Virus record (IMG/VR): IMGVR_UViG_3300006880_000001
Span: 1-64,000 of that record
Length of the DNA: 64,000 nt
DNA from: a virus
Direction: 5' to 3' (one strand)
Part shown: positions 4,046 through 33,186 of the stretch, piece by piece
How the letters are laid out: the number at the start of each line of letters is the position of its first letter
How positions within the stretch are numbered: position 1 is the first letter of the stretch
Made by a program: the position numbers and the translations under genes
Notes under the pieces: model-generated
The model's database searches: none
Seen by the model: the letters and a program-made list of their open reading frames with translations, nothing else
Told to the model about the DNA's origin: nothing

Positions 4046-4648
4046 CTACTCCAAGTCGCAGGGGAAGGTACCCTGGCAGGGCAGGGCTGCCGCCTTCTGG
4101 CGCTCGCGGTCCTCGGCAGCGATGCGCTCGCGCGCCTGCGCAAGTCGAACCGGGTCCTTCACCTGTTGCGTCCATATCACGCTCAGGCGCTCCCGTTCGG
4201 CTGGGGTCAGCGGCGGAAGCCGCCCGTCCGTCGACGACGGTACGCCCCACTCTCTCCGGGCGAGTTCGTCGGCCCGCCGAGCCATCAGGAGCTCGCCGTC
4301 CGAACGCCCTGCGGGGGTGCTGCTCTCACGGGGGACCTTGCGAGGTTCCGCCAAATCCTCGATCGGAACCACGATGACGACCCTGACGTCGTCCAACACC
4401 GTGAGGGTGGGCTTGGTGCCGGAATAGGGACAGACGCGGAACCAGTCGACGGTTCTTCGTTGTACGCAGGCCAGCGCGGTGTGGACCAAATTCGGGAGGT
4501 CGCCGCCGTGACCTCTGCCGAAGCAGCGTGACCGCCGCATCCCAGGACGCCAATGCGCGGCGGGAATGACGGCATAGCGTACGTCGTGGGCGAGGGTGAG
4601 GGGCGTGACGGCTATTGGCGTCCGGTCGTTGGCGAGGTCGAAGTTCAT
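4046..4648 (-). CDS. Hypothetical protein in integrase operon, 200 aa
   Basis: ATG 4648 overlaps the integrase stop by 4 bp, so it is translationally coupled to the integrase. Mixed alpha/beta N-terminal half followed by a charged helical C-terminal half with many Arg and Glu residues. No family recognised. Confidence 0.6.
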   Translation of the reverse strand: MNFDLANDRTPIAVTPLTLAHDVRYAVIPAAHWRPGMRRSRCFGRGHGGDLPNLVHTALACVQRRTVDWFRVCPYSGTKPTLTVLDDVRVVIVVPIEDLAEPRKVPRESSTPAGRSDGELLMARRADELARREWGVPSSTDGRLPPLTPAERERLSVIWTQQVKDPVRLAQARERIAAEDRERQKAAALPCQGTFPCDLE

Positions 4649-5520
4649 TTCGTCTCCTTGCGTCGACGCGCCGTGATGACTTCGGCGACATCGCCGCCGC
4701 GTGCGTGGCGGTCGTAGCGTTGGGTGGTCTTCGGGTCCCGGTGATGGACGGCGCCCTGGACCTGGCGGTCCGGCAGGCCAGCGTCGTAGGCCTCGGTGAT
4801 GAAGGCGACGCGGAAGCAGTGCGGATGGAAGCGATGGCCGACGGCGGCGGCGTAGCGGCTGACGATCTTGTTGATCGTGCCTTCGTGCATGGATGCGTCT
4901 TGGGGGCCCCGCGCCGGGAAGAGAAACGTCGACGGGGGCGCCACCGCCAGCCAGGCCTGGACCGCGGCGAGGGTGACGGCGGGCAGCGCCGCGACTTCCG
5001 TCCGCCCACCCTTGACCGTCACGGTCAGTTGGTTGCCTTGGAGGTGGCGGCGGCGGGCGGTGGCGATCGAGGCTCGCCGCAGGCCAACGTCGTAGAGGAG
5101 GCGCAGGATCGCGGTGTCGCGTGGCGAGCGCTCCGCCGCGGCGATCATCGCCACCGCGACCTCGTTGGGGATGATCTCCGTGGTGCCGGTCGTGGACGCC
5201 TCGGGCCGTGGCAACACCTTCGCGAAGAAGGGGTTGGCCGTGACCACCCCGGTGCGGAACAGGATGTCGTAGATCGACGCCAGCACCGCCAGCATGCGGC
5301 GGACGCTCGAGGGGGCGTAGGTGGTGATGAGGCCGTCACGGTACAGACGTGCCTGCGCCAGGGTCGCGAACCGCGGATCGACCCGATAGTGATCGCAGAA
5401 CGTGCGCCACTTCTGGAGATCGGATCGATAGACCTCCTGCGTCTTCGGGGATCGCCGCGTGCGGATGAACTCCTCGGCGGCGTCATCGAAGACGGATCGG
5501 GGGCGGTGGACGAGCTCCAT
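4645..5520 (-). CDS. Tyrosine integrase
   Basis: 291-aa phage-type site-specific recombinase. It has an N-terminal core-binding domain (about residues 10-105) and a catalytic domain with the set Arg148 (GLRRAS), Lys170 (VKGGR), His234-x-x-Arg237 (HCFR), His260 and nucleophile Tyr269 (TTQRYDR). Length and motif spacing are normal. It heads a leftward operon with 4046-4648 and 3629-4042, behind a consensus sigma70 promoter and a 20-bp palindrome. Expected to integrate or excise the element; no attachment site was identified. Confidence 0.9.
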   Translation of the reverse strand: MELVHRPRSVFDDAAEEFIRTRRSPKTQEVYRSDLQKWRTFCDHYRVDPRFATLAQARLYRDGLITTYAPSSVRRMLAVLASIYDILFRTGVVTANPFFAKVLPRPEASTTGTTEIIPNEVAVAMIAAAERSPRDTAILRLLYDVGLRRASIATARRRHLQGNQLTVTVKGGRTEVAALPAVTLAAVQAWLAVAPPSTFLFPARGPQDASMHEGTINKIVSRYAAAVGHRFHPHCFRVAFITEAYDAGLPDRQVQGAVHHRDPKTTQRYDRHARGGDVAEVITARRRKETK

Positions 5521-12272: not shown

Positions 12273-12338
12273 GCTCCACCATGGAGCCGTTGGGGCGCCG
12301 CCCGGGTAGCGAACCCGGATCCGATCCGCTCGCGGCGC
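12273..12338 (-). promoter_or_regulatory. Structured intercistronic leader, copy 1
   Basis: Leftward transcript: outer stem GCGCCGC/GCGGCGC (12338-12295) with the 5' bulge GAGCGGATCGGAT and inner hairpin CCGGGT-TCGCT-ACCCGG, then second hairpin GCTCC-ATGGT-GGAGC (12287-12273) just before the Shine-Dalgarno of 11794-12255. Both stems differ in sequence from the other copies but stay paired. Confidence 0.75.
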
Positions 12339-12343
12339 GCCTG

Positions 12344-12703
12344 CTACAGCTTGTAGAGGTACTTGTTGGCTGCTTCGACGTCGCCGAGGGCGATGTGGCC
12401 GAGCGCGGTGCGCACTTCCTCCTCGGTTCGGTTCCCTTCGAACAGCGCGTCGCAGACGCCGCCGAGAAGCTCCTTGGCCCGCCGGGGGATGGTCGGCCAG
12501 CTGGCTTGCGGGTGGCCTTCGAGGCGAACGTGGAAGCAGACGAAGTCCCGCATGATGAGATCCTCGCTCCGACGAGGCGGACGGGATGTGGTCCCGCACG
12601 GCGTCACGGCGCACCACTGTTCCTGATCGTACTGCTCCGGGTGCTCGTCGAGGGCGCGAAGGACAGCGGCGGCGATCTCGGCAGGGGTCTTCTCGGGGGT
12701 CAT
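12344..12703 (-). CDS. Hypothetical protein, 119 aa
   Basis: ATG 12703 with CGGAG upstream, 14 bases after the DUF932-like gene. Helical N-terminus (PAEIAAAVLRALDEHPEQY), a Cys/Trp segment (WCAVTPCG), then helices. No family recognised. Confidence 0.55.
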   Translation of the reverse strand: MTPEKTPAEIAAAVLRALDEHPEQYDQEQWCAVTPCGTTSRPPRRSEDLIMRDFVCFHVRLEGHPQASWPTIPRRAKELLGGVCDALFEGNRTEEEVRTALGHIALGDVEAANKYLYKL

Positions 12704-12717
12704 GGCTTGCTCCGGAT

Positions 12718-13968
12718 CTACCAGCCCAGCTTCTCGCGATCGTCGTCGGGGATCGGGAGGAGGACGTTCTTGACGTAGAGGAGGTCCGCCGCCTGCTCCT
12801 CGAGCTCGTCGTCGACCCAGGCGCTCCTCGACGTCCAGGCACCCTCGTGGGCCGCGCGGGTGATGGCGTTGTGGATGGCGGCGCGGCTGTCGTCGGCCTC
12901 CTCCGCCTCGGCCGCGGCCAGGATGGCCTTGACCTGGTCGTCCTTCGTACCGAACGGTGCCCTGGCGAGGCCGTGGTAGACGATGCGACGGACCGCCTCC
13001 TCCATCGACAGCTTGTCCTTGGTGTAGCGGTCGATGTAGAAGTCGGTCCAGGCACTGCGCCACATCGTGGCGAAGTGCTCGAGGGCGGCACCCTGCGCGC
13101 CCAGGGCCTCACGGGCGACCTCGATCAGGTTCGCCTGCGTGTGCCGCGCGTGGAAGATGACCCGCTTGTCGCGCAGGAGCGTGCAGTTGATGCAGCGGAT
13201 GCGCTCCATCGCCCAGTTGAGCTTGAACCCTGCGCTCCCGTCGTCCGCCGAGGTGATGCGGAGCATCAGGCGGTGCGGCTCGCCGACCGTACCGGCCTTG
13301 CCTCCCTCGAAGTGGTGCGGGCTCTGCAGGATGACGTCGACGCGGGAGCGGGAGCCGTCGTAGCGGACGCGCGCCCGGCTATCGGTCGGCATGATCTCGC
13401 GGATGTCGTTGGCGATCTGGTCGAGGTCGTAGCGTACATAGCGCTCGGACACGACCGAGTAGAGCGTGCGGGGCTTGTCGAGGTCGACGATCAGCGCCCC
13501 GTCCGCCGTGCGCTGCGGGCGCCGGCGGCTGCGGAGCACCGCCTTGTCGCCGGCGCGGCTGCCGAGCCAGAGGTTGACGTTCGAGCGCAGGGCGGGCGGG
13601 ATCGACGCGGGTGCGTAGCTGCTCAGGCGCTGCCAGCCGACTGGCTCGGCCCCGAACTCGAGGCGAGCGCCGTCGACGTCCGACGCCATGACGAGGCCGC
13701 TCCGCCCGATCCGCATGTCGCCCAGGTCGACGGTGTGGTCGATCCGGTTCTCGGCCTGAACCGCGTCGGCCAGCCGATCCATTGCCTCCCCGGTGGTGGC
13801 AAGCTTCAGAAACTGATCGCGGGCGCGCCGGGCGACCTGGTCGCCGACCGCCATCATCTCGGTGCCGTGCTCGAAGAAGGCTTCGCCGGGGTTGAGGCCC
13901 AGCTCCTTCAGGAGCTCGACGCCCTTGTCCGCACGCTTCTTGCCTTCGGGTCGAACCGTCGTCGTCAT
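12718..13968 (-). CDS. DUF932-like phage/plasmid protein
   Basis: 416 aa matching the phage/plasmid-like DUF932 family by its overall layout: N-terminal MAVGDQVARRARDQF region, beta-rich core with WQRLSSYAPASIP and RYVRYD segments, a long RITSADDGSAGFKLNWAMERIRCINC stretch split by a conserved Cys, and helical C-terminus. Family members are common on phages, plasmids and conjugative elements; their biochemical role is not established. Its start region lacks the full leader but has the second hairpin (13987-14001) and GGAAAGG. Confidence 0.7.
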   Translation of the reverse strand: MTTTVRPEGKKRADKGVELLKELGLNPGEAFFEHGTEMMAVGDQVARRARDQFLKLATTGEAMDRLADAVQAENRIDHTVDLGDMRIGRSGLVMASDVDGARLEFGAEPVGWQRLSSYAPASIPPALRSNVNLWLGSRAGDKAVLRSRRRPQRTADGALIVDLDKPRTLYSVVSERYVRYDLDQIANDIREIMPTDSRARVRYDGSRSRVDVILQSPHHFEGGKAGTVGEPHRLMLRITSADDGSAGFKLNWAMERIRCINCTLLRDKRVIFHARHTQANLIEVAREALGAQGAALEHFATMWRSAWTDFYIDRYTKDKLSMEEAVRRIVYHGLARAPFGTKDDQVKAILAAAEAEEADDSRAAIHNAITRAAHEGAWTSRSAWVDDELEEQAADLLYVKNVLLPIPDDDREKLGW

Positions 13969-13986
13969 CGTCTCTTTTGCCTTTCC

Positions 13987-14001
13987 GCCCCACGGTGGGG
14001 C
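13987..14001 (-). promoter_or_regulatory. Second-hairpin-only leader of DUF932-like gene
   Basis: GCCCCACGGTGGGGC forms a perfect 6-7 bp stem, identical in form to hairpin B of the other leaders and followed by the same GGAAAGG ribosome-binding context. The larger first structure is absent here. Confidence 0.6.
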
Positions 14002-14013
14002 CTGTGAAGTGTC

Positions 14014-14031
14014 CCGTGAGTCTTACCCACG
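14014..14031. promoter_or_regulatory. Inverted pair of CACG sites, possible RHH operator
   Basis: CCGTGAG (14014-14020) and CCCACGA (14026-14032) face each other across a short spacer, upstream of the DUF932-like gene. The heptads match those of the array at 23290-23720, so the same DNA-binding protein could act here. Confidence 0.4.
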
Positions 14032-14475
14032 AGTAGTAAGCGAGTCAAGAAGCTTGTGGGGATCGACCGTGGCCAGGATGTCGCTGTCCGAACCTACGAT
14101 CTTGATCACGACCTTGCCGGCGATTGCCACCGCTTTGGCCTGCGCGAGGAGTGCGGACATCGTCGCCTTGTCGCCGTCGTGCCAGCGCTTGGTGGTCCCG
14201 GTGCCGAGATGAATGTACTTGACCACCACGGCATCATTCGCGGGTCGCGGTGATGGTGGTGGCGGGGGCAGGGGCAGCGGTTCGAGCTGCAGCACCTGCC
14301 GCGTCGCGCGCGGAAAGACGATCGGCAACGTCGCCTCCTCGTCGTCCGCCGGTGGAAGCGGGATCGCCTGTTCGGTCGGCGCCCGGCTGAGGGGAGGTGG
14401 CGCAGACTGCCCGCCCGCTCCCTTGTTGTCTCCGAAGAAGTACCCCGCAGTCTGCCGCAGTGCCCGTCGACGCAT
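14023..14475 (-). CDS. Hypothetical Pro-rich protein, 150 aa
   Basis: ATG 14475. Basic N-terminus (MRRRALRQT), a long Pro/Ala-rich linker (about residues 25-75), then a compact beta/alpha C-terminal domain with several Lys and His. No family recognised. Confidence 0.55.
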   Translation of the reverse strand: MRRRALRQTAGYFFGDNKGAGGQSAPPPLSRAPTEQAIPLPPADDEEATLPIVFPRATRQVLQLEPLPLPPPPPSPRPANDAVVVKYIHLGTGTTKRWHDGDKATMSALLAQAKAVAIAGKVVIKIVGSDSDILATVDPHKLLDSLTTRG

Positions 14476-14495
14476 GGGAGGCGCTCCTGGGGCGT

Positions 14496-14825
14496 TTACG
14501 GCTCGACGACGTCGAGGTCGTGGTCCACAGCCCACCGAACCGCCTCGGTGGAGGCGATCCCGGCATCGTAGTGACTCTCGACGTGGATGGCGCGCTGCCA
14601 GCCGGCCGGGAGGTCCACGAGGAGCTCGACAGCGACGTGATGTAGGCCGTCGCAGCGGTACACGAAGACCCGCACCGGATCGTGCGGCAGGAACGGATGG
14701 CGCGCCGTCCGGATCGCCGGGGCCGGCATGAGCGCCATGAGGTTCTTGGCGGTTTCGACCTCGGAGACCGCGGCCTTGAGGGTCTTGGGTGCGATCGTCT
14801 TCTTGCTCTTCTTGCTTTTGCTCAT
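14496..14825 (-). CDS. Hypothetical protein, 109 aa
   Basis: ATG 14825 with AAGGAG. Lys/Ser-rich N-terminus (MSKSKKSKKTIAPK) followed by a mixed domain that includes a beta-rich segment (VRVFVYRCDGLHHVAVELLVDLP). Preceded by a half GATC-box promoter. Function unknown. Confidence 0.55.
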   Translation of the reverse strand: MSKSKKSKKTIAPKTLKAAVSEVETAKNLMALMPAPAIRTARHPFLPHDPVRVFVYRCDGLHHVAVELLVDLPAGWQRAIHVESHYDAGIASTEAVRWAVDHDLDVVEP

Positions 14826-14847
14826 TGGGAAAGCTCCTTCCGGGACT

Positions 14848-14874
14848 CCATTAGCCCCGATCGAACCTGCGAGG
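14848..14874 (-). promoter_or_regulatory. Probable promoter with half GATC box
   Basis: Leftward CCTCGCAGGTTCGATC (14874-14859), 5 nt, TAATGG (14853-14848). One arm matches the 16-bp palindrome found at 61357 and 63806; the other arm is degenerate. A 22-nt leader with AAGGAG precedes ATG 14825. Confidence 0.45.
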
Positions 14875-14914
14875 CAATCACCCCGCAGGGTCTGTCGGAT
14901 CCACCGAAGCCGCC

Positions 14915-15172
14915 TTAGCGCTGCGCGAGCCTGACCAAGTTCGTAAAGGCCAGGTTCTCGGGACGCGGCACACCGGGCATGAAGGCGATGAGGGCGCGGA
15001 CCCGCGCTGCCAGCTCGGGCGCGCAGGCCGCGCAGACCACCAACGACTCGAGCCCATTCGACATGTCGAAGATGGTCCACCCGCCCGATGTCTTGAGATC
15101 TTGCGCGAAGTGGCCGCGCGAGAACGTCAATGGGGCAGCACAGCAGATGCACGGACGCGTGATGGGGTCCAC
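14915..15172 (-). CDS. Small zinc-ribbon-like protein, 85 aa
   Basis: GTG 15172 with GGGAGGTGAG, three bases after the upstream stop. CICCAAP near the N-terminus and VCAACAPE about 35 residues later form a CxxC-type four-Cys set. The rest is helical. Function unknown. Confidence 0.6.
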   Translation of the reverse strand: MDPITRPCICCAAPLTFSRGHFAQDLKTSGGWTIFDMSNGLESLVVCAACAPELAARVRALIAFMPGVPRPENLAFTNLVRLAQR

Positions 15173-15175
15173 CGC

Positions 15176-16576
15176 TCACCTCCCGGTCGTGAGGAGGAAG
15201 CGGAGCACGCGCGTCCACGCCTCCTCGAGCGTGGCGACGTGCGCGTGGTCGCCGTCGCCGGCGACGTCGTGGGCGAACTCGTGCAGGAGGGTCGCGGTTG
15301 CGGTCTCGACCGAGATCAGCTCACCGCGCGCCAGGGCCACGCGTCGGGTCGCGCCGTCGTGTTGGCCGAGGCGCGACGCGGCGCGGAAGGTGACGACGTC
15401 GAGACGTTCGAGGACGCGATCGATCGCGTCCGATCGCTCGGTCGGTGTCGCGTCGGGGTTGCTCATGACGTCGAGGTCGTCGAGCGCGAACGTCCTCGGG
15501 AAGGCGACGACCACGAACCGGGCCGCCGCCTCAAGGCGTTGCCGCTCGTCGACGTCGAGATCGTTCCAGCCGTGGGTGGCCACGATCTCGTTGGCGGCCG
15601 CGGTCTTGATCTTGTCGAGCGTGCCCAGCGCTGGGGCCAGCACCGCCGCCATCGCCCGGGGCACGACGGCGCCGACGCGGCCGAGGTGGGCCAGGTCGCG
15701 CGAGTCGGCCAGGGTCGTGACCGGGACGGCGGCGTCGCCGTGGACCTTCTTGAAGGCGCCCGCCAGCGCCTCGCTGGCGGCCTTCGACGGCTCCCAGTGC
15801 TCGGAGCCGCGGACGTCCTCGGCGTCCTTCTGGAGGAGCTCGAAGTAGCGCTCGACGAGCTTCGGGTTCGCCTCGACCGCCGAGGCCCACAAGGCCTGCA
15901 GCCGGAAGCGGAGATCCCAGCTGTCGACCATGCGCCGATCGCGGTCCAGCTCGGCGTGCTCGAGGTCGTAGCCGCAGTGTAGGTCCGAGCGGCTGTGGGT
16001 GTAGAGGCCCTTGACGAAGACGTCGCCCTTGCGCGTCGGGTCCAGGAGGATCGAACCGCGCCCGGGTACGTTCACGGTGTTCTTGTCGGGATCGGGCCAG
16101 AGGAAACGGATGTGGTTCTGGACGAACGTCCAGTGGCCCTCGTTGCAGCCGGCCACCTCGATCGAGATGCGCCGCTTGAACTCGCGGCCGCCGGTGATGG
16201 TGAAGACGAGGACGTCGGCCTTGAACTTCTCCGATCGGGCGATCGTCGGCACCCACACCTCGCTACCGGTGCGGATGGTGATCCGGGCGCCCTTGCGGAG
16301 GAGCGCCAGGATGCCGAGCTTCAGCCCCTCGCCGAACCGGCCGATGGTGTCGGTCCGGTTGGCCTTGGACGTCCGGCCGAGCAGGAGGACCTCCTGCGGC
16401 AGCGTGACGCCCTCGTTCTCGATGCGAAGCTTGCCGCTCTTCTTGTCGAAACGGACGGTCATTTTGGCGCCATGTTCGATCTCGGCATCGCGGGAGTTCT
16501 GCACCAACTCGCGGATGCCCTCCCACACGCCCCAGGTCGGCAAGTAATCGACGTCGATGGACAGTTCGAGTTTCAT
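15176..16576 (-). CDS. GHKL-type ATPase with C-terminal zincin motif
   Basis: 466 aa. Residues 1-150 carry the GHKL/Hsp90-histidine-kinase ATP-binding fold: N-box E23-LVQN-S-RDA, a G1-like IENEG at 52-56 and G2 box GRFGEGLKLG at 79-88. The C-terminus has HEFAH (432-436) followed by DHAH, the HExxH zinc-protease signature with a possible third ligand. Start at ATG 16576 fits GGAAAGGAAG upstream; an in-frame ATG further up lies in the leader. Combination of ATPase and zincin-like part is rare. Could remodel or cleave a host protein; enzymatic activity is not proven by motifs. Confidence 0.75.
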   Translation of the reverse strand: MKLELSIDVDYLPTWGVWEGIRELVQNSRDAEIEHGAKMTVRFDKKSGKLRIENEGVTLPQEVLLLGRTSKANRTDTIGRFGEGLKLGILALLRKGARITIRTGSEVWVPTIARSEKFKADVLVFTITGGREFKRRISIEVAGCNEGHWTFVQNHIRFLWPDPDKNTVNVPGRGSILLDPTRKGDVFVKGLYTHSRSDLHCGYDLEHAELDRDRRMVDSWDLRFRLQALWASAVEANPKLVERYFELLQKDAEDVRGSEHWEPSKAASEALAGAFKKVHGDAAVPVTTLADSRDLAHLGRVGAVVPRAMAAVLAPALGTLDKIKTAAANEIVATHGWNDLDVDERQRLEAAARFVVVAFPRTFALDDLDVMSNPDATPTERSDAIDRVLERLDVVTFRAASRLGQHDGATRRVALARGELISVETATATLLHEFAHDVAGDGDHAHVATLEEAWTRVLRFLLTTGR

Positions 16577-16603
16577 GGGTCTCCCGCTTCCTTTCCCTTT
16601 CGT

Positions 16604-16647
16604 GCACTCCCCGGGCAACGAGCCCGGATCCGATCCGCTCGGAGCGC
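16604..16647 (-). promoter_or_regulatory. Structured intercistronic leader, copy 2 (first structure only)
   Basis: Outer stem GCGCTCC/GGAGTGC (with a G-T pair valid only on the leftward strand), bulge GAGCGGATCGGAT and hairpin CCGGGC-TCGTT-GCCCGG, between the end of 16647-17261 and the Shine-Dalgarno of the GHKL gene. The second hairpin is missing. Confidence 0.75.
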
Positions 16648-17261
16648 TACTCTTCGACGGTGTCGACGGCGTCGGGATCGTCGTCGTCGAGGGCGGCCAC
16701 GGTGTCGCAGACGGCCACCACCGGGTTCGTGAGCCGATGATCGATCATGGCGGCCTTGCGGGCCTCCCGGCGTAGTGTCCGTGCCGGCTCGACGAGCCGA
16801 AGCATGGCGAGGAGCCGATCCGCCTGCGACCCCTCGAGTACGACCTCGATGAGCGGGACCGCGCGATCGTCGGGGCCGCCGAACGGTGCGACCTGCGGCG
16901 TGACGCAGGTCTCGGCCTCGGCCGCGTCGTGGAGGAGGCCGAGGCCCACGAACGTGCGGCGGAGATCCATGGCGATGCCTCGCGCCTCGGCGCGGGCTCG
17001 GTCCTCCGCAAGGTGATCCTCGGTGAGGAGCTCCCAGGTCTCACCGTGGAAGGCGCGTCGGCCGGGCCGCGCCAGCTTCTCGGCGACGAGCTGATCGAGG
17101 ATGCGGCGGATCGACGCACGCGCGCTGCGACGAACGGCGTCGGAGACGCGGGTGGCGTGCTCGCGGCGGGTCAGCGCGTCGAGGACGGCGCCCGTCGTGT
17201 AGCGGCGGCCCGGCTGCGCCTTGAGGATGGCGAGGACACTGTCACGGGTGATATCGACCAC
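16647..17261 (-). CDS. Winged-helix-like hypothetical protein, 204 aa
   Basis: Residues about 1-80 look like a winged helix: VLAILKAQPGRRYTTGAVLDAL, a recognition-helix stretch with many Arg, then GRRAFHGETWELL as wing. The rest is helical and ends in a poly-acidic tail (DDDDPDAVDTVEE). Possible transcription regulator or adaptor of the early operon. Confidence 0.55.
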   Translation of the reverse strand: MVDITRDSVLAILKAQPGRRYTTGAVLDALTRREHATRVSDAVRRSARASIRRILDQLVAEKLARPGRRAFHGETWELLTEDHLAEDRARAEARGIAMDLRRTFVGLGLLHDAAEAETCVTPQVAPFGGPDDRAVPLIEVVLEGSQADRLLAMLRLVEPARTLRREARKAAMIDHRLTNPVVAVCDTVAALDDDDPDAVDTVEE

Positions 17262-17276
17262 GGCTGGGACTCCTTT

Positions 17277-17639
17277 TCAGACATAGGGAAGGACGTCGCC
17301 GCCGTCGCCGTCGGCTGTCCACGTCTCGTCGATCCAGACGGCGTCGAGTGGTGGTGCCGCTGCCCTCGCCTTGGCGATGGCTTCTTCGCGCGTCGGCGCC
17401 ATGACGGCAAAGAGCCGCCGCAGCGAAAGTGGCTTCCGCAGCCAACGCGCTTCGCGCGCGACCTGCCACAGCTTCATCGGTTCGATCTCGGGCTCCGGCC
17501 CCGGAGGGGGAATCGCCCCCGCGTCGGCCAGGATCTCGGCCAGGAGATCCCGGTCATCGGGGTTGCTGCCGATGTAGAAGTCGGCGAACAGGGTGGCGCG
17601 TGCGTGGAGCCACTCTCTCCACTGATCCAGGGTCGACAT
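17277..17639 (-). CDS. Hypothetical protein, 120 aa
   Basis: ATG 17639 chosen over ATG 17645 because AAGGAG is 7 nt away. Helical N-terminus with Trp (LDQWREWLHARAT), a Pro-rich linker, then MKLWQVAREARW and a basic helix. No family recognised. Confidence 0.55.
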   Translation of the reverse strand: MSTLDQWREWLHARATLFADFYIGSNPDDRDLLAEILADAGAIPPPGPEPEIEPMKLWQVAREARWLRKPLSLRRLFAVMAPTREEAIAKARAAAPPLDAVWIDETWTADGDGGDVLPYV

Positions 17640-17653
17640 GGACATGCTCCTTT

Positions 17654-17965
17654 TCAGCGCAGTGCGCGCAGCTTCTTGAAGATGAGGGCGTAGGCCGTCG
17701 GCATCGGCGTGCCGGTGGGGACGAGACTGTCGAGCGCCGCCTCGAGCGTCGCCACCTCCGTGGCCGTCAAGGCATCACGCTCGACGGTCGGGCGGCGAGC
17801 CAGCGTGAACAGCCGCTCGGCCAGCCGGATGCGGCGCTTGTCAGCGCGGCGTCGCATCGGATTGCGGGTGAAGTCGTCGAGGGCATCCGCGAGGAGGAAG
17901 GCGAGATCCGCCTCGTCCTCCTCACTGAGAAGTCCATCGACAACGACGACGATCTTGGTGGCCAC
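17654..17965 (-). CDS. Hypothetical protein, 103 aa
   Basis: GTG 17965 with AAAGGAG, directly downstream of leader copy 3. Begins VATKIVVVVDGLLSEEDEAD; remainder is helical with a basic middle. No family recognised. Confidence 0.55.
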   Translation of the reverse strand: MATKIVVVVDGLLSEEDEADLAFLLADALDDFTRNPMRRRADKRRIRLAERLFTLARRPTVERDALTATEVATLEAALDSLVPTGTPMPTAYALIFKKLRALR

Positions 17966-17978
17966 TGCGACTCCTTTC

Positions 17979-18044
17979 GAGCCCACGGTGGGCTCCTTTG
18001 GTGCGCTCCCCGGCAACGAGCCGGAGATGATCCTCTCGGAGCGC
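17979..18044 (-). promoter_or_regulatory. Structured intercistronic leader, copy 3
   Basis: Outer stem GCGCTCC/GGAGCGC (18044-18003), bulge GAGAGGATCATCT, shortened inner hairpin CCGGC-TCGTT-GCCGG, then hairpin B GAGCCCACCGTGGGCTC (17995-17979) and GAAAGGAG. The inner stem has lost one pair on both sides, consistent with selection for pairing. Confidence 0.75.
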
Positions 18045-18049
18045 TGACC

Positions 18050-18286
18050 TCACCGCGTCCAGGCTCGGATCGCCTGGAGTGCGCGCTCGCGCGTTTTGAA
18101 GCGTTGGTAGGTGGTCTCGGGGAGCCCACCATGCGGCGGATGCGAGACCACGATCTTGCCATTCCGCTCCCAGACAAAGGCCGTGCGGCCATTGGGGAGT
18201 CCGATCGCTCCGGTGGGGGCGTACCGGATCTCGACGCCGTTGGCGGCGAGGTAGTCGAGGAGGGCGGCAGCTTCCGTGACGCTCAT
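18050..18286 (-). CDS. Hypothetical protein, 78 aa
   Basis: ATG 18286 overlaps the upstream stop by 4 bp. Helical start (MSVTEAAALLDYLAANGVE), beta-rich middle, basic helical end. No family recognised. Confidence 0.55.
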   Translation of the reverse strand: MSVTEAAALLDYLAANGVEIRYAPTGAIGLPNGRTAFVWERNGKIVVSHPPHGGLPETTYQRFKTRERALQAIRAWTR

Positions 18287-19041
18287 GACTCCTCGCCGAA
18301 CGAGCGCGCCCACGCGATCACCTCGGCCGGTAGCTCGCGGTGGAGCCACGACGAGCCCAGCCGATACCCGCATTCGGGACAGACGGCGCGCTGCGCGTGC
18401 GCGTCGAGCGCAGCCTTGTGGTTGCGCCTGGCCGTGACGATGCGCGACCGCTCCTCGGCGAGTCGCGTCGCGCGTTCCGCCGCACTGCGGACATGGCCTA
18501 GGTCCGCCACCGGCGACGGCGCGACGTACGTGGGCTCCGCCTCGGCCCACGCCCGGAAGGTCTCGCCGCGGGCCTCCTGATGCTCGCAGGTGGACTTGAG
18601 GCTGTTCAGGTGGTAGCAGCGGTAGCGGGACACCTCGGGGAACCACTCATTGATGGCGCCCCCGATCTGGCCGCACGAGTCGAGGATCCAGACCTCGCCG
18701 TCTTGGGCCTCGCTCGCCATCTCGTCACGGGCGACGTCCAGCCCATGCAACTTGCCGTCGGTCTTGATGACGTAGCGCGCGGCTGCCTTCGCTGTCGCGC
18801 ACCGCGAGCCGGACCGCTGGTTCATGGCGGTGATCTCGTCGGGCTGATCCTCGAAGAACTGGATCCAGTAGTCGAGGGCGGTGCGCTCTGCCTCGGCGCG
18901 GGGGAGGATGCGGCCCTCCTGGCCGGTGATCGACAACTCCAATTTGCCGCCTCGGTCGTGCAGTGCGACGTGGACGGTGCACCACCGATCGCCTAGGCGG
19001 CGGGTCGCGCGACGGACAGACACAGTCTCGGTCTTGGACAC
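18283..19041 (-). CDS. Zinc-ribbon-containing hypothetical protein, 252 aa
   Basis: ATG 19041. Beta-rich N-terminal half with KLELSITGQEGRILP, a central Cys/His segment and a late CPECGYRLGSSW that looks like half a zinc ribbon. Alternation of beta strands and Trp-rich helices; no family assigned. Preceded by leader copy 4. Confidence 0.55.
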   Translation of the reverse strand: MSKTETVSVRRATRRLGDRWCTVHVALHDRGGKLELSITGQEGRILPRAEAERTALDYWIQFFEDQPDEITAMNQRSGSRCATAKAAARYVIKTDGKLHGLDVARDEMASEAQDGEVWILDSCGQIGGAINEWFPEVSRYRCYHLNSLKSTCEHQEARGETFRAWAEAEPTYVAPSPVADLGHVRSAAERATRLAEERSRIVTARRNHKAALDAHAQRAVCPECGYRLGSSWLHRELPAEVIAWARSFGEES

Positions 19042-19068
19042 GGTTGCTCTCCCCGGTTAGGGTCTCAC

Positions 19069-19136
19069 GGGCCCACCATGGGCCCCGTTGGCGCACGCCC
19101 CGGGCAACGAGCCCGGATCCGATCCGCTCGGCGTGC
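19069..19136 (-). promoter_or_regulatory. Structured intercistronic leader, copy 4
   Basis: Outer stem GCACGCC/GGCGTGC (19136-19093), bulge GAGCGGATCGGAT, inner hairpin CCGGGC-TCGTT-GCCCGG, then hairpin B GGGCCCATGGTGGGCCC (19085-19069). The outer stem differs from copies 1-3 at paired positions. Confidence 0.75.
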
Positions 19137-19148
19137 TACGGCTGGCTC

Positions 19149-19814
19149 TCAGTCCTCGCGGTTCCAGCGCGGTTCGCGTACGGCCGTCGGCGTGGGCTCC
19201 TTGGGCCCGACACGCCACTCTCCGACCTTGTTTCCGTTCGCGTCGTGGATGAACCCATAGCGGATCCCTCGCGGGGCCACGCCGAGGACGTCATCTCCCC
19301 GCTCGCGCATCTGGCGCGCGATCGCGTCCACCGCGGACGCGACGTCGCTGCCGGTGCGCATGGCATCGTTGCCGAGATCGATCTCGACGGTGAATCGCAC
19401 CTCGGGCGCATCATCGTCCATGACCGACTGCAGGATGTCTCGCGCGGCCTCGGCGCGGCGAGATCCGCGCTTGACGGCGTCGAGAATGCTGTCAGCAAGC
19501 GCGAGCGTGGCTTCGCCCTTCATGCCGTCGTAGTAGCCCCTCGGCTGCGTGAAGTCCGCTTCCGACTTGTACGAGCACGCGCCGAGGATGTCGACGCCGT
19601 CGAAGTCTCCGAGGCGGGCTGTCACCTTGGCGCAGAACCACGCCCACAGGTTGCCCTTCGCTAGTTGCGCGCGGATCCAAGACACTGTCTCGGCGTCGTC
19701 CTCGGCGTCACCGGAGGCGAAGTGATCCGCGGGATCGGTATCCTCCTCCTCGATCTCGAGCTTGAACTCCACCCGCTCGCGGATCTTCTCGGCCAGCTCG
19801 TCTCTGTCCATCAT
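19149..19814 (-). CDS. Hypothetical protein, 221 aa
   Basis: ATG 19814 in the shared start context AAAGGCTAACCGCC-ATG. Acidic N-terminal helix, then WIRAQLAKGNLWAWFCAKV and GVDILGACSYKSEADF, a stretch that resembles GWDILGASHWAVGWYD in 21259-21927, so the two may be distant relatives. No known family. Confidence 0.6.
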   Translation of the reverse strand: MMDRDELAEKIRERVEFKLEIEEEDTDPADHFASGDAEDDAETVSWIRAQLAKGNLWAWFCAKVTARLGDFDGVDILGACSYKSEADFTQPRGYYDGMKGEATLALADSILDAVKRGSRRAEAARDILQSVMDDDAPEVRFTVEIDLGNDAMRTGSDVASAVDAIARQMRERGDDVLGVAPRGIRYGFIHDANGNKVGEWRVGPKEPTPTAVREPRWNRED

Positions 19815-19836
19815 GGCGGTTAGCCTTTCGTCATCC

Positions 19837-19902
19837 GAGCCCACCGTGGGCTCCGTGGTGCGCCACCCGGGCAGCGAACCCGGGGTGATCCGCTCGTGGC
19901 GC
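19837..19902 (-). promoter_or_regulatory. Structured intercistronic leader, copy 5
   Basis: Outer stem GCGCCAC/GTGGCGC (19902-19860), bulge GAGCGGATCAC, inner hairpin CCCGGGT-TCGCT-GCCCGGG, then hairpin B GAGCCCACGGTGGGCTC (19853-19837) and AAAGGCTAACCGCC before the ATG. Confidence 0.75.
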
Positions 19903-20111
19903 TACTCCTTGGATCGCGGTAGCGCGTCCTCGATCCGAGCCGCGAGATCGCGCAGCGCCCCCGCCAGATCTCGCGCGGCGTCGAGATCGGTCCGGCCCTG
20001 CCCCTCGGGTACGCGGCCCGCCGGTATGTAGGCTGTCCACTGCGCATCGCTGTCAGAGTCGCCGGCGCGAACGAGCCGGATCCGGCCCCCGAGCATTGAG
20101 CGTCCGATCAT
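19902..20111 (-). CDS. Small hypothetical protein, 69 aa
   Basis: ATG 20111, three bases after the upstream stop. N-terminal beta-rich part with a TAYIPAGRVPEG stretch, then a helix ending IEDALPRSKE. No family recognised. Confidence 0.5.
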   Translation of the reverse strand: MIGRSMLGGRIRLVRAGDSDSDAQWTAYIPAGRVPEGQGRTDLDAARDLAGALRDLAARIEDALPRSKE

Positions 20112-20114
20112 GGC

Positions 20115-20807
20115 CTACTCCTCCTCGACGGCGTAGCGGTCGGGGATGATTGCGTTGACGCGTGCCAGGAGCCACGTCTCGCGTTCGGTGAGCGGCCGGG
20201 GCCGGCCACAGAGCCCGGTGGCGCGGGTGGGATCGATCCTCTTGGGCTCGGGCCGGAACCCAGCCGTACCGCTGAGGAAGTCCCACCCACTGTTGCCGAT
20301 GGCGTTTTGCTGTGTGTCGAGCATGAACCCGAGCATCAGTTGCGCGCCGACGGCTTCGACGGCGCAACCCTTGACGGGTCCGTGGGCGCGGCGGCTGCTC
20401 TTCTCGGCGATCACTGCGCGACACCCATAGTCGTGCAACGCTTCGCACAGGATCGCGATCAGCGTCTCATCGTCCGTGCCGTCGTCGATTCCATCGCCGT
20501 CGAGGAGCCCCCACGAGTGCACGGCCGACAGGATGCTCGCGTCGCTGGCGAAGCCAGGCGAGACGGCGGACAGGGTCGCGAGCCACCGGTGGCCGTGGGG
20601 CAAGATGCCCTCCTCCTCGACATACTCGAGCTTGATCAGTAGGTACACAGGCCAGTCGCACGCGATCGGCTCGCCGACGCGCCAGAGCGTACCGTCGTCG
20701 CACTGATCGACGAAACTCCGGTAGGCCACACCGCGCAACAGGCGCAGCGGGGCGCCGGGGGGTCGGGGGTCGGACATGGCGGTTGCGTTCATATCGATGG
20801 CGGGCAT
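20115..20807 (-). CDS. Hypothetical protein, 230 aa
   Basis: ATG 20807 with AAAGGAG; a second ATG at 20777 is possible. Mixed alpha/beta with a Cys/Asp patch (FVDQCDDGTLWRV), an acidic loop (DGDGIDDGTDDE) that could bind metal, and an Arg/Leu-rich C-terminus ending YAVEEE. No family assigned. Preceded by leader copy 6. Confidence 0.6.
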   Translation of the reverse strand: MPAIDMNATAMSDPRPPGAPLRLLRGVAYRSFVDQCDDGTLWRVGEPIACDWPVYLLIKLEYVEEEGILPHGHRWLATLSAVSPGFASDASILSAVHSWGLLDGDGIDDGTDDETLIAILCEALHDYGCRAVIAEKSSRRAHGPVKGCAVEAVGAQLMLGFMLDTQQNAIGNSGWDFLSGTAGFRPEPKRIDPTRATGLCGRPRPLTERETWLLARVNAIIPDRYAVEEE

Positions 20808-20841
20808 CTGCTAGACGCTCCTTTGGCTTTCGCCACTTATG

Positions 20842-20908
20842 GCGCCCACCACGGGCGCCGTGGGGTGCTCCCCGGGCAACGAGCCCGGATCCGATCCGCT
20901 CGGAGCAC
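20842..20908 (-). promoter_or_regulatory. Structured intercistronic leader, copy 6
   Basis: Outer stem GTGCTCC/GGAGCAC (20908-20865), bulge GAGCGGATCGGAT, inner hairpin CCGGGC-TCGTT-GCCCGG, then hairpin B GCGCCCGTGGTGGGCGC (20858-20842). Confidence 0.75.
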
Positions 20909-20923
20909 GCGGTGCGGCTGCGG

Positions 20924-21253
20924 CTAGGGCTCGCCGCGGCCGTCGAGGAACGGATCGCAGTCCGCCTCCTCCTCCTCCTCCTCCTCCTCGTCGTCCGCCT
21001 CGTCGTCGCCCTCCTCCGCGTCGTCGCCCTTGCGAATCTCGGCGAGCCACTCCTCGCCGAGATCGATGGCTCGCGCCGCGGTGAGCGTGTACAGATCCGG
21101 GTGCCCGGACTGACACTCCACGTTCTCCCAGCCGTCACGGCGGGACGCCCACAGGTTGAGATACGATCCGTTGATCGTGACGAGTAGCCCCAACTCCTCG
21201 TCGCACGCGACGATCGGACCGTTGCTCAGTACGTCGAAAATGGTCATGGACAT
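20924..21253 (-). CDS. Acidic-tailed hypothetical protein, 109 aa
   Basis: ATG 21253 with GGAAAGGCTAATCGCC upstream. A beta-rich N-terminal domain (FDVLSNGPIVACDEELGLLV) and an extremely acidic C-terminus with eight consecutive Glu encoded by a CTC repeat. Acidic tails of this kind occur in DNA-mimic and chaperone-like phage proteins; no assignment. Confidence 0.6.
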   Translation of the reverse strand: MSMTIFDVLSNGPIVACDEELGLLVTINGSYLNLWASRRDGWENVECQSGHPDLYTLTAARAIDLGEEWLAEIRKGDDAEEGDDEADDEEEEEEEEADCDPFLDGRGEP

Positions 21254-21258
21254 GGCGA

Positions 21259-21927
21259 TTAGCCTTTCCGGTGGAGGGGTTGCAGCCACAGCGCCAGCGA
21301 CGCGGCGATCACCGCGGCGCGCGCGAGGGCTTCGCGATCCTCGCGAGACCAGCGCACGATCCAGTTGTCCGACGCGTCGGCAAACTCGTCGCATGGCTCG
21401 ACGCGGCAGAACGCGATCAGCGCGTCCATGTCGAGATCGCCCTCGATCGTCCACCGGATCGGATCCAACTCGTCGTCAAACAGATCAGCCGCGGTGATTT
21501 CCTCGGCAATCCGGGCCAGATCGTGCGCGAGATCCTGGCAGATGCCGGGCCATTGCGCATCGCGCAGCGCCGACTCCATCTCCGCGTGGCGCGTGTCGTT
21601 CAGGATCAGGTAGCTCGCGAGTGCGGCGGCGCACTCCTGCAGGATCTTCACGAGATCGGCTCGGGTCGGATCGACGATGATATGGTCATACCATCCCACA
21701 GCCCAGTGCGAGGCACCGAGGATGTCCCACCCCGTCTCATCGGGATCCGCCGCTCGGAGTTGCGCGACGATCTCATCATGGTTGCAGCGATCGACGACGC
21801 CCGAGTCCCGATGGACTCCGCCGACGAGCGCGAAGCGCCACCCCTGCTCGGTGACCCGCTTGTCGCTGCAAGCGAAATTCGGAATGTCCTCGTAGCGCTT
21901 CAAGACTTCGATCTCGGTGACGGACAT
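21259..21927 (-). CDS. Hypothetical protein, 222 aa
   Basis: ATG 21927 in the shared start context CTAACCGCC-ATG. Mostly helical with GWDILGASHWAVGWYD (similar to part of 19149-19814) and a late beta/alpha region rich in Asp/Glu and Trp. No family assigned. Preceded by leader copy 7. Confidence 0.6.
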   Translation of the reverse strand: MSVTEIEVLKRYEDIPNFACSDKRVTEQGWRFALVGGVHRDSGVVDRCNHDEIVAQLRAADPDETGWDILGASHWAVGWYDHIIVDPTRADLVKILQECAAALASYLILNDTRHAEMESALRDAQWPGICQDLAHDLARIAEEITAADLFDDELDPIRWTIEGDLDMDALIAFCRVEPCDEFADASDNWIVRWSREDREALARAAVIAASLALWLQPLHRKG

Positions 21928-21948
21928 GGCGGTTAGCCTTGCCTTTCC

Positions 21949-22014
21949 GGGGCTACCGTAGCCCCCTAGTGCACCCCCCGGGCAACGAGCCCGGATCCGA
22001 TCCGCTCGGGGCGC
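21949..22014 (-). promoter_or_regulatory. Structured intercistronic leader, copy 7
   Basis: Outer stem GCGCCCC/GGGGTGC (22014-21971), bulge GAGCGGATCGGAT, inner hairpin CCGGGC-TCGTT-GCCCGG, then hairpin B GGGGCTACGGTAGCCCC (21965-21949). Hairpin B keeps its form while replacing CCAC/GTGG by CTAC/GTAG, a compensated change. Confidence 0.75.
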
Positions 22015-22021
22015 CGCGCTG

Positions 22022-22750
22022 TCACTCGTCGTCGTCGACGGGCGCAACGTACATGCATCGCGTGGTCGCGGGGCGCGGCATGAGGCGCGCGGCGCCCGCA
22101 TCCGTGGCGCGGACGGTCCAATACGTCACGGTGTCGTCCGAGATCTGCGCCAGCCGATCGGCGATATCTTGGACGTCTAGCTCGAGCTGGATCTGAGGGT
22201 CCGTACCGTCGGGCTCGGACGCGGTGTCCGCGTAGGTGTCGCCCTGGTACGTCACGACGACAAACAACGGCAACTCCACGATACAGCGTCCCTCACGGCA
22301 TTCCCGACAGGGTGCATCGACGCGATCGGACTCGAAGTCCGCTCCAAAACGATGGCTACCGCAGCGCGCACACGGCACTTGCGGACCGGGGTTGACGCGA
22401 TGGGGGATCCGCTCACCGTTCATGTTCCGGCAATGGATTTCCCGGGTCGGAGCCGTGTCGTCGTCGTCGTCGTCGTCGTCGTCGGTCCCGAACATCTCAT
22501 CGAGCGCCGCGCGCGCCTCGTCGGCGGAGTCGTGCGGACCGGTCCAATCCGTACAGTCGAGGTAGCCCGGGGCCGACAGGCGCGCCCACCACTTGCCGTC
22601 GACAGTCTCGACGGAGGCGGGATCGCAGCCCGTCTCTTCAGCGAAGCGCTCGTGGCTGCCCCATACGTACGCCGGGGCGACGTACGTCTCCCCACCGGCG
22701 TCGCCAACATGGAAAGCCTCTTGCGTCACCTCTGGTCTCATGAATGACAT
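22022..22750 (-). CDS. Zinc-ribbon and poly-Asp protein, 242 aa
   Basis: ATG 22750 in the CTAACCGCC-ATG context. Contains a run of nine Asp (encoded by a GTC repeat), then CARCGSHRFG and CRECREGRC, two CxxC-type pairs of a zinc ribbon. N-terminal 90 residues include a Trp/Tyr-rich part. First gene of the leader-bearing early run; probably a regulator or adaptor, unassigned. Confidence 0.6.
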   Translation of the reverse strand: MSFMRPEVTQEAFHVGDAGGETYVAPAYVWGSHERFAEETGCDPASVETVDGKWWARLSAPGYLDCTDWTGPHDSADEARAALDEMFGTDDDDDDDDDTAPTREIHCRNMNGERIPHRVNPGPQVPCARCGSHRFGADFESDRVDAPCRECREGRCIVELPLFVVVTYQGDTYADTASEPDGTDPQIQLELDVQDIADRLAQISDDTVTYWTVRATDAGAARLMPRPATTRCMYVAPVDDDE

Positions 22751-22770
22751 GGCGGTTAGCCATCCTTTCC

Positions 22771-22853
22771 GAGCCCCACCGCGGGGCTCCTAGTGCGCCG
22801 CGTGGCAGCGAGCCACGGCGATCCCACTGTGGGATCCGATCCACTCACGGCGC
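22771..22853 (-). promoter_or_regulatory. Structured intercistronic leader, copy 8 (variant with extra hairpin)
   Basis: Outer stem GCGCCG/CGGCGC (22853-22795), bulge GAGTGGATCG, an additional hairpin GATCCCAC-A-GTGGGATC (22836-22820), inner hairpin CGTGGC-TCGCT-GCCACG, then hairpin B GAGCCCCGCGGTGGGGCTC (22789-22771). Inner stem sequence is unlike all other copies yet fully paired. Confidence 0.75.
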
Positions 22854-22862
22854 AAACCTATC

Positions 22863-22880
22863 GGAAACACGTGTGTTTCC
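22863..22880. promoter_or_regulatory. 18-bp palindrome, possible operator
   Basis: GGAAACAC-GT-GTGTTTCC, perfect 8-bp arms, upstream of the first leader-bearing gene 22022-22750. Likely site for a dimeric regulator of the long leftward operon. Confidence 0.45.
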
Positions 22881-23289
22881 CTTGGCCAAATCCTCTAGCC
22901 CCCGCTGTTTCGCTGTCACGCAAGATCCACGCGTCCCCCCACACCCCTCCACCTAGCGCTCGCATCCGCAAGCGCGCTACGCGCGTTCCCAGCACGGTCG
23001 GGCGATGGCCTATTCGGTTGTCACGCCCCGGGCGCCGTCGGCGCCGCGTGGCAGCTGTAGCTCCCCAGGGGGCGAACCCCGGGCCGATCTCGCGGTCGGG
23101 CGATGGACCCTGCCGCTTAGCCGTCGGGCGCGCGTAGCGCCGTGGCGTCCACCGAGCGCGCGTCCCGGGACCGTGCGCGGCCGCCCGAGGGTGGGCTGGC
23201 GCCGCGCGTAGGCCCGGACGTGCGTCCGGCGCGATCGGATGTAGGTGCTAGTCGTACCTCCGTCGCCCCACCGTGGGGCCAAAGGGTGA

Positions 23290-23714
23290 AAGTCTCGTGG
23301 GTTGCCGTGAGAAACCCGTGGAAATCCCACAGGAAACTCGCCGCTACTCGCCGGCCCATCACTGCGACCGGGGAGTCAACCGTAGCAACGAGTAGGTTTA
23401 GACGCAAGCCCCGTGAAAACTATCTCACAAACTCACGTAATTATTACTGTTTTCCACGTGTTCGTGTGAGCCATACACGGGATTTTCGCGGCTACTCACG
23501 TGTAACCCACGGAAAACTCACAGGAATCGCGGAGTGCCGTGTAACTGTGCGAATCCCCTGTGGAAATCCCACGGCGGACTCACGGCTACCCACGGGCTAC
23601 CCACGGCCGACTCACGGCCCGTACACGGGCGCCTGGCGTACGGGACGCGGGTGGCCGTGAGCGGCCCGTGGGTGACTCACGGCGCACTCGCACCCACACA
23701 CGGCGGATTCACGT
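23290..23714. repeat. Helically phased CACG(G) iteron array
   Basis: Fifteen forward CACG sites at 23434, 23455, 23476, 23497, 23508, CACAGG at 23519, then 23570, 23581, 23591, 23602, 23613, 23624, 23678, 23699 and 23710. Steps are 10-11 or 21 bp with two gaps of 51 and 54. Three inverted CGTG sites at 23296, 23306 and 23317 precede them. Core heptads are CTCACGG and CCCACGG. The AT-rich segment sits among the first sites. An RHH gene follows immediately, the setting of plasmid centromeres and iteron origins. Confidence 0.75.
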
Positions 23715-33109: not shown

Positions 33110-33186
33110 GCGCGCTTAGCTCAGCAGCAGAGCACCGAGCGTAATGGACTCGGGTGTCGGGGGTGCGACTCCCTCAGCGCGCGCCA
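33110..33186 (+). tRNA. tRNA-like gene with expanded anticodon arm
   Basis: Acceptor stem GCGCGCT/AGCGCGC (perfect, 7 bp), D stem GCTC/GAGC, anticodon stem CCGAG/CTCGG around a 9-nt loop (33140-33148), T stem GGGGG/CCCTC, and encoded CCA after G73. The loop is 2 nt longer than normal; aligning U33 at 33142 gives AAT as anticodon (Ile-type). D- and T-loop invariants are partly lost (loop TGCGACT lacks the usual T55). Either a divergent phage tRNA, a frameshift-type tRNA or a tRNA-like RNA. Confidence 0.65.

Follow-up and report, generated by a model that had tools for sequence, protein, structure and literature searches.

Copies of a small RNA element that resembles part of a transfer RNA (tRNA) stand before eight genes of one operon in the first 64,000 bases (the window, bases 1-64000) of IMG/VR virus record IMGVR_UViG_3300006880_000001, which is 129,359 bases long. 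This element, here called element A, is tRNA-like in form: an acceptor/T-arm minihelix that also has a D-loop-like strand and ends in a CCA-like tail. It is a real, covarying RNA element with a separable companion, hairpin B, and has so far been found in one phage. All eight copies lie on the minus strand, where the interval from 22.9 to 12.2 kb is occupied by successive small genes, mostly without recognised families. We tentatively propose, with a probability of roughly 0.4, that element A punctuates the polycistronic phage messenger RNA (mRNA) for the tRNA-maturation machinery of the host, above all ribonuclease P (RNase P).

In the 5' to 3' direction, the stop codon of the upstream gene is followed after 0-15 nucleotides (nt) by the 7-nt outer arm of A, which starts with G, then by GAGnGGATC with about four further bases and by the first inner arm. 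The loop TCG(C/T)T, the second inner arm, the second outer arm and the tail N-C-(C/T/G)-A come next, and after another 0-3 nt follow hairpin B, the ribosome-binding site and the start codon. No bases separate the inner from the outer 3' arm. The outer and inner helices together make a stack of 12-13 base pairs (bp), and the 5' strand at the junction measures 12-13 nt. The outer stem ends at exactly 7 bp in seven of the eight copies (c1 to c8, listed below), and G1-C72 in tRNA numbering closes it in all eight. Both the GG of the 5' strand and the TCG of the loop are invariant. The tail reads N-C-N-A in every copy, with C74 and A76 invariant; it is NCCA in five copies, NCTA in two (c1 and c2) and NCGA in one (c7). 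Counted from the end of the stem, the first three bases are RCC in three copies, CCC in two, ACT in two and ACG in one. The predicted fold of c1 is a four-way junction with an extra 7-bp hairpin at the anticodon-arm position.

Our hand-made alignment of the eight copies of A comprises 15 pairs with 118 pairing cells, and all of these (118/118, 100%) are standard pairs. With slid registers only 35-51% were found to pair. Seven pairs are changed on both sides, and the covariation score of 0.398, against 0.133 in shuffled alignments, was reached by none of 500 shuffles. In the alignment of hairpin B (nine copies), 95% of the cells are paired and five pairs are doubly changed, with a score of 0.595 against 0.219 and again none of 500 shuffles reaching it. 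When whole 3' arms were shuffled among the copies of A, the outer stem reached the observed pairing in 3 and the inner stem in 125 of 20,000 trials each; these shuffle counts are not true probabilities or independent events because the copies are paralogues of one genome. The stem covariation claimed in a first-pass annotation of this DNA is borne out, and hairpin B covaries as well.

Wobble pairs occupy five cells (in A of c2, c5 and c7 and in B of c1 and c3), every one of which reads G-U, and never A-C, when taken on the mRNA strand; this is better explained by an RNA of that strand than by double-stranded DNA. The first-pass annotation had described one such strand-specific pair in c2; the pair is there, although it is not unique. 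That element A is a functional RNA, as had been suggested, and not a DNA operator is well supported, since A and B covary, the wobbles fit the mRNA strand only and near-invariant unpaired bases adjoin variable stems. A DNA operator was ruled out on the same features, namely stems that vary with compensation, fixed unpaired bases and wobbles suiting the mRNA strand only. Two other candidates were also rejected: a promoter, as no sigma-70-like site was found, and an intrinsic terminator, as terminator-like sites were fewer than in shuffles.

Two covariance models were applied to the full record. The first, the element model, was built from six copies of A with c1 and c6 left out; it recovers both left-out copies (c6 at 46.2 bits and c1 at 23.6 bits), and over all 129,359 bases it gives no significant match besides the eight copies, with nothing else coming near them. 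The second, the tRNA model, was built solely from 11 real bacterial tRNAs from which the segment between position 20 and the T-stem had been excised, and was run without filters. The eight copies of A previously placed in this region are all present, and are listed here together with hairpin B. Coordinates of A include the 4-nt tail, and each hairpin B of a numbered copy was placed by its fold and by the B alignment.

22791-22853, minus strand: A copy c1, tail ACTA, extra 7-bp hairpin at the anticodon-arm place (predicted fold); element model 23.6 bits though outside the model
22771-22789, minus strand: hairpin B of c1
21967-22014, minus strand: A copy c2, tail ACTA; element model 73.5 bits, tRNA model 15.3 bits
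21949-21965, minus strand: hairpin B of c2
20861-20908, minus strand: A copy c3, tail CCCA; element model 73.0 bits, tRNA model 15.0 bits
20841-20859, minus strand: hairpin B of c3
19856-19902, minus strand: A copy c5, tail ACCA, loop TTCGCTG, overlapping the upstream stop by one base; element model 60.7 bits, tRNA model 12.9 bits
19837-19853, minus strand: hairpin B of c5
19089-19136, minus strand: A copy c4, tail GCCA; element model 72.5 bits, tRNA model 23.8 bits (second-best match of the record)
19069-19085, minus strand: hairpin B of c4
17999-18044, minus strand: A copy c6, tail ACCA, inner stem shorter by one pair; element model 46.2 bits though outside the model
17979-17995, minus strand: hairpin B of c6
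16600-16647, minus strand: A copy c7, tail ACGA, without hairpin B, overlapping the upstream stop by one base and standing before the GHKL ATPase gene; element model 73.1 bits
13987-14001, minus strand: hairpin B without A, before the gene at 12718-13968
12291-12338, minus strand: A copy c8, tail CCCA, loop TTCGCTA; element model 72.1 bits, tRNA model 24.7 bits (best match of the record)
12273-12287, minus strand: hairpin B of c8
23265-23279, minus strand: hairpin B with no A, ahead of the first operon gene

Seven copies of A have hairpin B behind them. It is absent behind c7, and two further hairpins B, at 13987-14001 and 23265-23279, have no A in front of them, so that A and B are modules that can be separated; the description of a single two-part element holds for the seven copies with both parts and fails for these three sites. 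The copies are also placed selectively among the genes. By codon-based gene calls made in this analysis, the stretch from 22.75 to 12.25 kb has nine intergenic gaps that reach 50 nt or more, of which seven carry A, one (14,022-13,969) carries hairpin B only and one (14,914-14,826) carries neither, so that the earlier statement that sizeable gaps hold the element is correct for seven of the nine. None of the gaps of 20 nt or less between operon genes carries A. Copy c1 precedes the first gene of the operon. Between A and the start codon of the next gene lie 27-57 nt, and genes placed in this way are uncoupled from their neighbours. Copies c5 and c7 begin inside the upstream TAG, whose last base serves as their first G.

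Our analysis demonstrates the tRNA resemblance of A along with its fold and conservation. In tRNA numbering, most copies consist of acceptor pairs 1-72 to 7-66, a 5-bp T-arm with the 7-nt loop YTCGYTR, and positions 73-76. The GAGnGG of the 5' strand is shaped as in the D-loops of tRNA-Ser, with C, A or T as the variable base in both. The top two matches of the tRNA model in the 129-kb record are c8 (24.7 bits) and c4 (23.8 bits), and the best other match reaches 16.1 bits; the remaining copies score about 9-15 bits, amid chance matches, with c1 not listed. Some other phages have tRNA genes by the dozen, and their tRNA arrays score 17-27 bits with this model; by that measure c8 and c4 equal real tRNAs in tRNA likeness, and the other copies fall short of them. 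We also collected 963 chance sites of similar layout from the record (at least 11 of 12 pairs and a 5' bulge of 8-20 nt): a YTCG loop was found at 12, an NCnA tail at 46 and an AGnGG bulge at 44, loop and tail together at one and all three at none, with the qualification that these motifs were picked after the element had been seen. The anticodon arm and D-stem of a tRNA gene are missing, a hairpin at the anticodon-arm place being present in c1 only. A pseudoknot between GAG of the 5' strand and CUC of the loop was ruled out, as there is no linker to bridge the inner stem. The phage has two tRNA genes of its own, for tRNA-Ile with anticodon AAT and tRNA-Leu (TAA) (window 33110-33186; L019:3833-3907), and neither has the T-loop of A. 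A tRNA-Ile with anticodon AAT is unusual in bacteria.

Relatives of the element were sought in several collections. Scans of viral contigs and of genome contigs with the element pattern, each followed by the element model, gave single matches per contig that were judged to be chance (for the genome contigs, among the matches listed), the best score of these scans being 27 bits. The 284 genomes from the phylum of a Polyangiaceae metagenome-assembled genome, a host group that is a guess, gave scattered matches also judged to be chance. No kin of the GHKL ATPase, a 416-aa operon protein or the phage DNA polymerase were found in the viral contigs, and megablast of the region against phages and plasmids returned no matches. 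A VWA protein matched six distant phages in the viral contigs, none of which has element A; short matches of the tRNA model in these phages seemed to be minihelices, and those inspected were 3' parts of ordinary tRNA genes. Two phages that share the VWA protein (PHROG 2426), G290 and G293 (L167, L168 and L169), carry more than 40 tRNA genes each, compared to two here. A link to Ro60 and Y RNA through the VWA protein was dropped as there was no TROVE match.

One of the six distant phages, G295, was observed to contain tRNA-like segments at L184:3638-3689, L184:15902 and L188:15042, each with a perfect 7-bp acceptor, a 5-bp T-stem and a true T-loop; they have no anticodon arm, and their 5' strands measure 17, 20 and 35 nt. 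About 10 nt downstream of the segment at L184:3638-3689 lies an HNH-type gene. Seven matches of this layout occur outside tRNA genes in 160 kb of G295 and none in the reversed sequence, although some of the seven may be chance. We regard these segments as a lead and not as evidence for an RNA family.

Under the punctuation reading, the tRNA-maturation machinery of the host, chiefly RNase P, would recognise A by its coaxial stack of 12-13 bp together with its loop and N-C-Y-A tail, and would cleave the operon transcript on the 5' side of the outer stem or close to it. Every messenger released downstream would open with a base-paired segment, and hairpin B and the ribosome-binding site would come behind it. 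RNase P cleaves hairpins made of acceptor stem, T-stem and T-loop (PMC11143913) as well as some mRNAs and t-elements (PMC4919922), and it seemingly needs a T-loop or similar loop but not a D-loop (PMC4919913). The t-elements of plant mitochondria are tRNA-like sequences located at the ends of genes, where cleavage by RNase P and RNase Z sets the ends of mRNAs (PMC11658184), and it is by analogy with these that A would split the operon transcript; we infer both the action of RNase P, or of any tRNA enzyme, and the effect of the cut. The position of A directly behind stop codons and solely in uncoupled gaps supports this reading, as do the covarying fold, the 7-bp outer stem with G1-C72, the T-arm-like hairpin joined to its 3' arm, the N-C-N-A tail, the GAGnGG strand, the tRNA-model ranks of c8 and c4, the chance-site counts and the four-way junction predicted for c1. 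Among the three options raised by the first-pass annotation (a regulator site, RNA processing or a translational switch), RNA processing is the one we favour, while the likeness to a tRNA acceptor/T-arm with a CCA-like tail had been overlooked. A wider formulation is that a DNA phage uses an array of minimal CCA-tailed tRNA mimics to have its mRNA split by host tRNA enzymes into separately stabilised and translated units, which would extend the principle of tRNA punctuation and t-elements to a whole operon in bacteria and would make A a new RNA family without an anticodon arm; this we hold to be rather doubtful.

Several observations weigh against the proposal of punctuation. A cut exactly before G1 in c5 and c7 would split the upstream stop codon, which argues against a cut at that exact point in these copies, or would mean that cutting follows translation. 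The U54-A58 pair of the T-loop is missing, position 58 being C or T in all copies, and positions 54 and 60 covary as a base pair; the loop may therefore be a pentaloop on a 6-bp stem. ARAGORN called no tRNA at the copies of A in its standard and mitochondrial modes. The Rfam 15 covariance models gave no match at gathering scores, that of the yjdF riboswitch included, and only chance-level ones with E up to 10, which agrees with the earlier statement that no known riboswitch or ribozyme is matched. The tails ACGA (c7) and ACTA (c1 and c2) deviate from NCCA, six of the eight copies do not rise above chance matches in the tRNA model, and the motifs counted at the chance sites were chosen after the fact. 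The proposal also draws on the sequence of one phage, and no relatives were found in the collections searched.

The main rival, which we consider unlikely, sees A as an uncut tRNA-like leader whose tertiary shape boosts translation of the next gene, with B keeping the ribosome-binding site free. The overlap with stop codons poses no conflict here, A lies 27-57 nt before the starts of uncoupled genes, and the conserved GG of the 5' strand and TCG of the loop would be accounted for. Precedents come from tRNAs placed upstream of a Shine-Dalgarno sequence, which raise translation 2- to 6.3-fold in vitro, and from the yjdF riboswitch, which requires both G residues of its D-loop equivalent (PMC9142559). 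However, removal of ACCA cost little in that work (PMC9142559), so the invariant C74 and A76 would be left unexplained. Element A moreover adjoins the upstream stop at no fixed distance from the start, and nothing was seen to suggest a switch by which the ribosome-binding site would be hidden.

More unlikely again, in our estimate, is that an RNA-binding regulator, from the phage or from its host, co-ordinates the operon genes by binding to A, to B or to both, with the tRNA likeness being secondary. Repeats with conserved unpaired bases before many genes are what such a regulator would use, the copies are confined to this operon, and A and B each occur alone as separate binding sites would. 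The 7-bp stem, the contiguous T-arm and the NCCA-like tail are nevertheless not predicted by it, and no candidate regulator was identified.

The early transcript of phage T7 is cut by RNase III at sites between genes, and A might be a set of RNase III processing sites of this kind since its helices also lie between genes of one transcript. RNase III sites typically have helices longer than 12-13 bp. A helix of just 12-13 bp with a large 5' bulge falls below that typical length, and the loop, 5' strand and tail would go unexplained, which makes this explanation improbable. We give slightly less credit still to the idea that A and B are antitermination elements of the nascent RNA that bind RNA polymerase: the put RNAs of phage HK022 have about 70 nt and two stem-loops in a phage early operon, but each early transcript of HK022 has a single put site, whose effect extends over 10 kb or more (PMC9378689), against eight copies here, and A and B also occur singly. 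Least probable of all are integron attC-like sites for gene-cassette recombination that act as folded single-stranded DNA, because in spite of structure-conserved elements in one orientation behind stop codons and two tyrosine recombinase genes nearby (1491-2363 and 4645-5520), no RYYYAAC/GTTRRRY cores were read at the ends of A (which are stem arms, mostly GCGC...GCGC, followed by NCNA), the modules comprise one gene or several, all wobble pairs suit the mRNA strand and no copies occur elsewhere in the record.

Some further features of the operon and its surroundings were recorded. The GHKL-type ATPase encoded by one operon gene is related to PHROG 6077. The larger gap without A or B (14826-14914) holds a different hairpin, CCTGCG...CGCAGG, near GGATCCGA. 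Upstream of the operon, about 700 bp (window 22860-23600) contain no convincing gene, many inverted repeats and the lone hairpin B at 23265-23279, and are probably the control region. An extended start context, AAAGG...CTAAYCGCCATG, is common to several operon genes (starts 22750, 21927, 21253 and 19814), and the gene starting at 21253 shares it although it has neither A nor B. The two tyrosine recombinases, which are different from each other, lie less than 4 kb apart in the window (PHROG 1 integrase, Pfam Phage_integrase).

We found no dedicated, repeated, tRNA-shaped mRNA element of a phage operon in the literature searched, and to our knowledge none has been described. If punctuation is true, the phage controls its messenger through the tRNA pathway of its host, and the copies would be naturally evolved minimal substrates that bear on the requirements of RNase P, RNase Z, the CCA enzyme and the T-loop modifier. 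If A enhances translation instead, it would parallel in nature the tRNA leaders that were grafted and assayed in vitro (PMC9142559).

Among known systems, the RNase III sites of T7 are likewise structured sites between phage genes and cut the polycistronic early transcript into units, whereas they depend on another enzyme, have longer helices and show no tRNA likeness. Two stem-loops are found both in HK022 put and in A with B, here with eight copies in one operon. The start-associated sequences (SAS) and extended SAS (ESAS) of cluster K mycobacteriophages (PMC3203893) are also repeated inverted-repeat elements just before many phage genes; compared by definition and not by sequence consensus, an ESAS is an imperfect inverted repeat of 17 bp, with a spacer that varies, beside the SAS, whereas A has a fixed layout of 7+6 bp.

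Closer likenesses were observed among RNAs with tRNA-like folds. The tRNA-like domains of transfer-messenger RNA (tmRNA) and of the bacterial Y RNA YrlA (PMC8394870) share acceptor, T-arm and D-loop features with A and have no ordinary anticodon arm, but they belong to free small RNAs whereas A is embedded between genes and repeated. The yjdF riboswitch (PMC9142559) is a tRNA-like fold in a bacterial mRNA leader, with equivalents of the D- and T-loops; unlike A, it has a four-helix junction, binds a ligand and has an off state that pairs the Shine-Dalgarno sequence, and A gives no Rfam match to it. The RNase P model substrates AT1 and pMini3bpUG (PMC11143913) resemble A in the acceptor stem, the T-stem with its loop and G1-C72, and their 3' end is RCCA. 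These are artificial hairpins, to which A adds a 5' junction strand of 12-13 nt and a non-canonical T-loop.

The t-elements of plant mitochondria (PMC11658184, PMC4919922) are, like A, tRNA-like sequences at gene ends in polycistronic transcripts. They are recognised by RNase P and RNase Z, which define the mRNA ends, whereas for A we only infer cleavage. They are also organellar homologues of tRNA genes and have no encoded CCA; element A, by contrast, dispenses with the anticodon arm in seven of its eight copies, carries an encoded NCCA-like tail and occurs eight times within a single phage operon.

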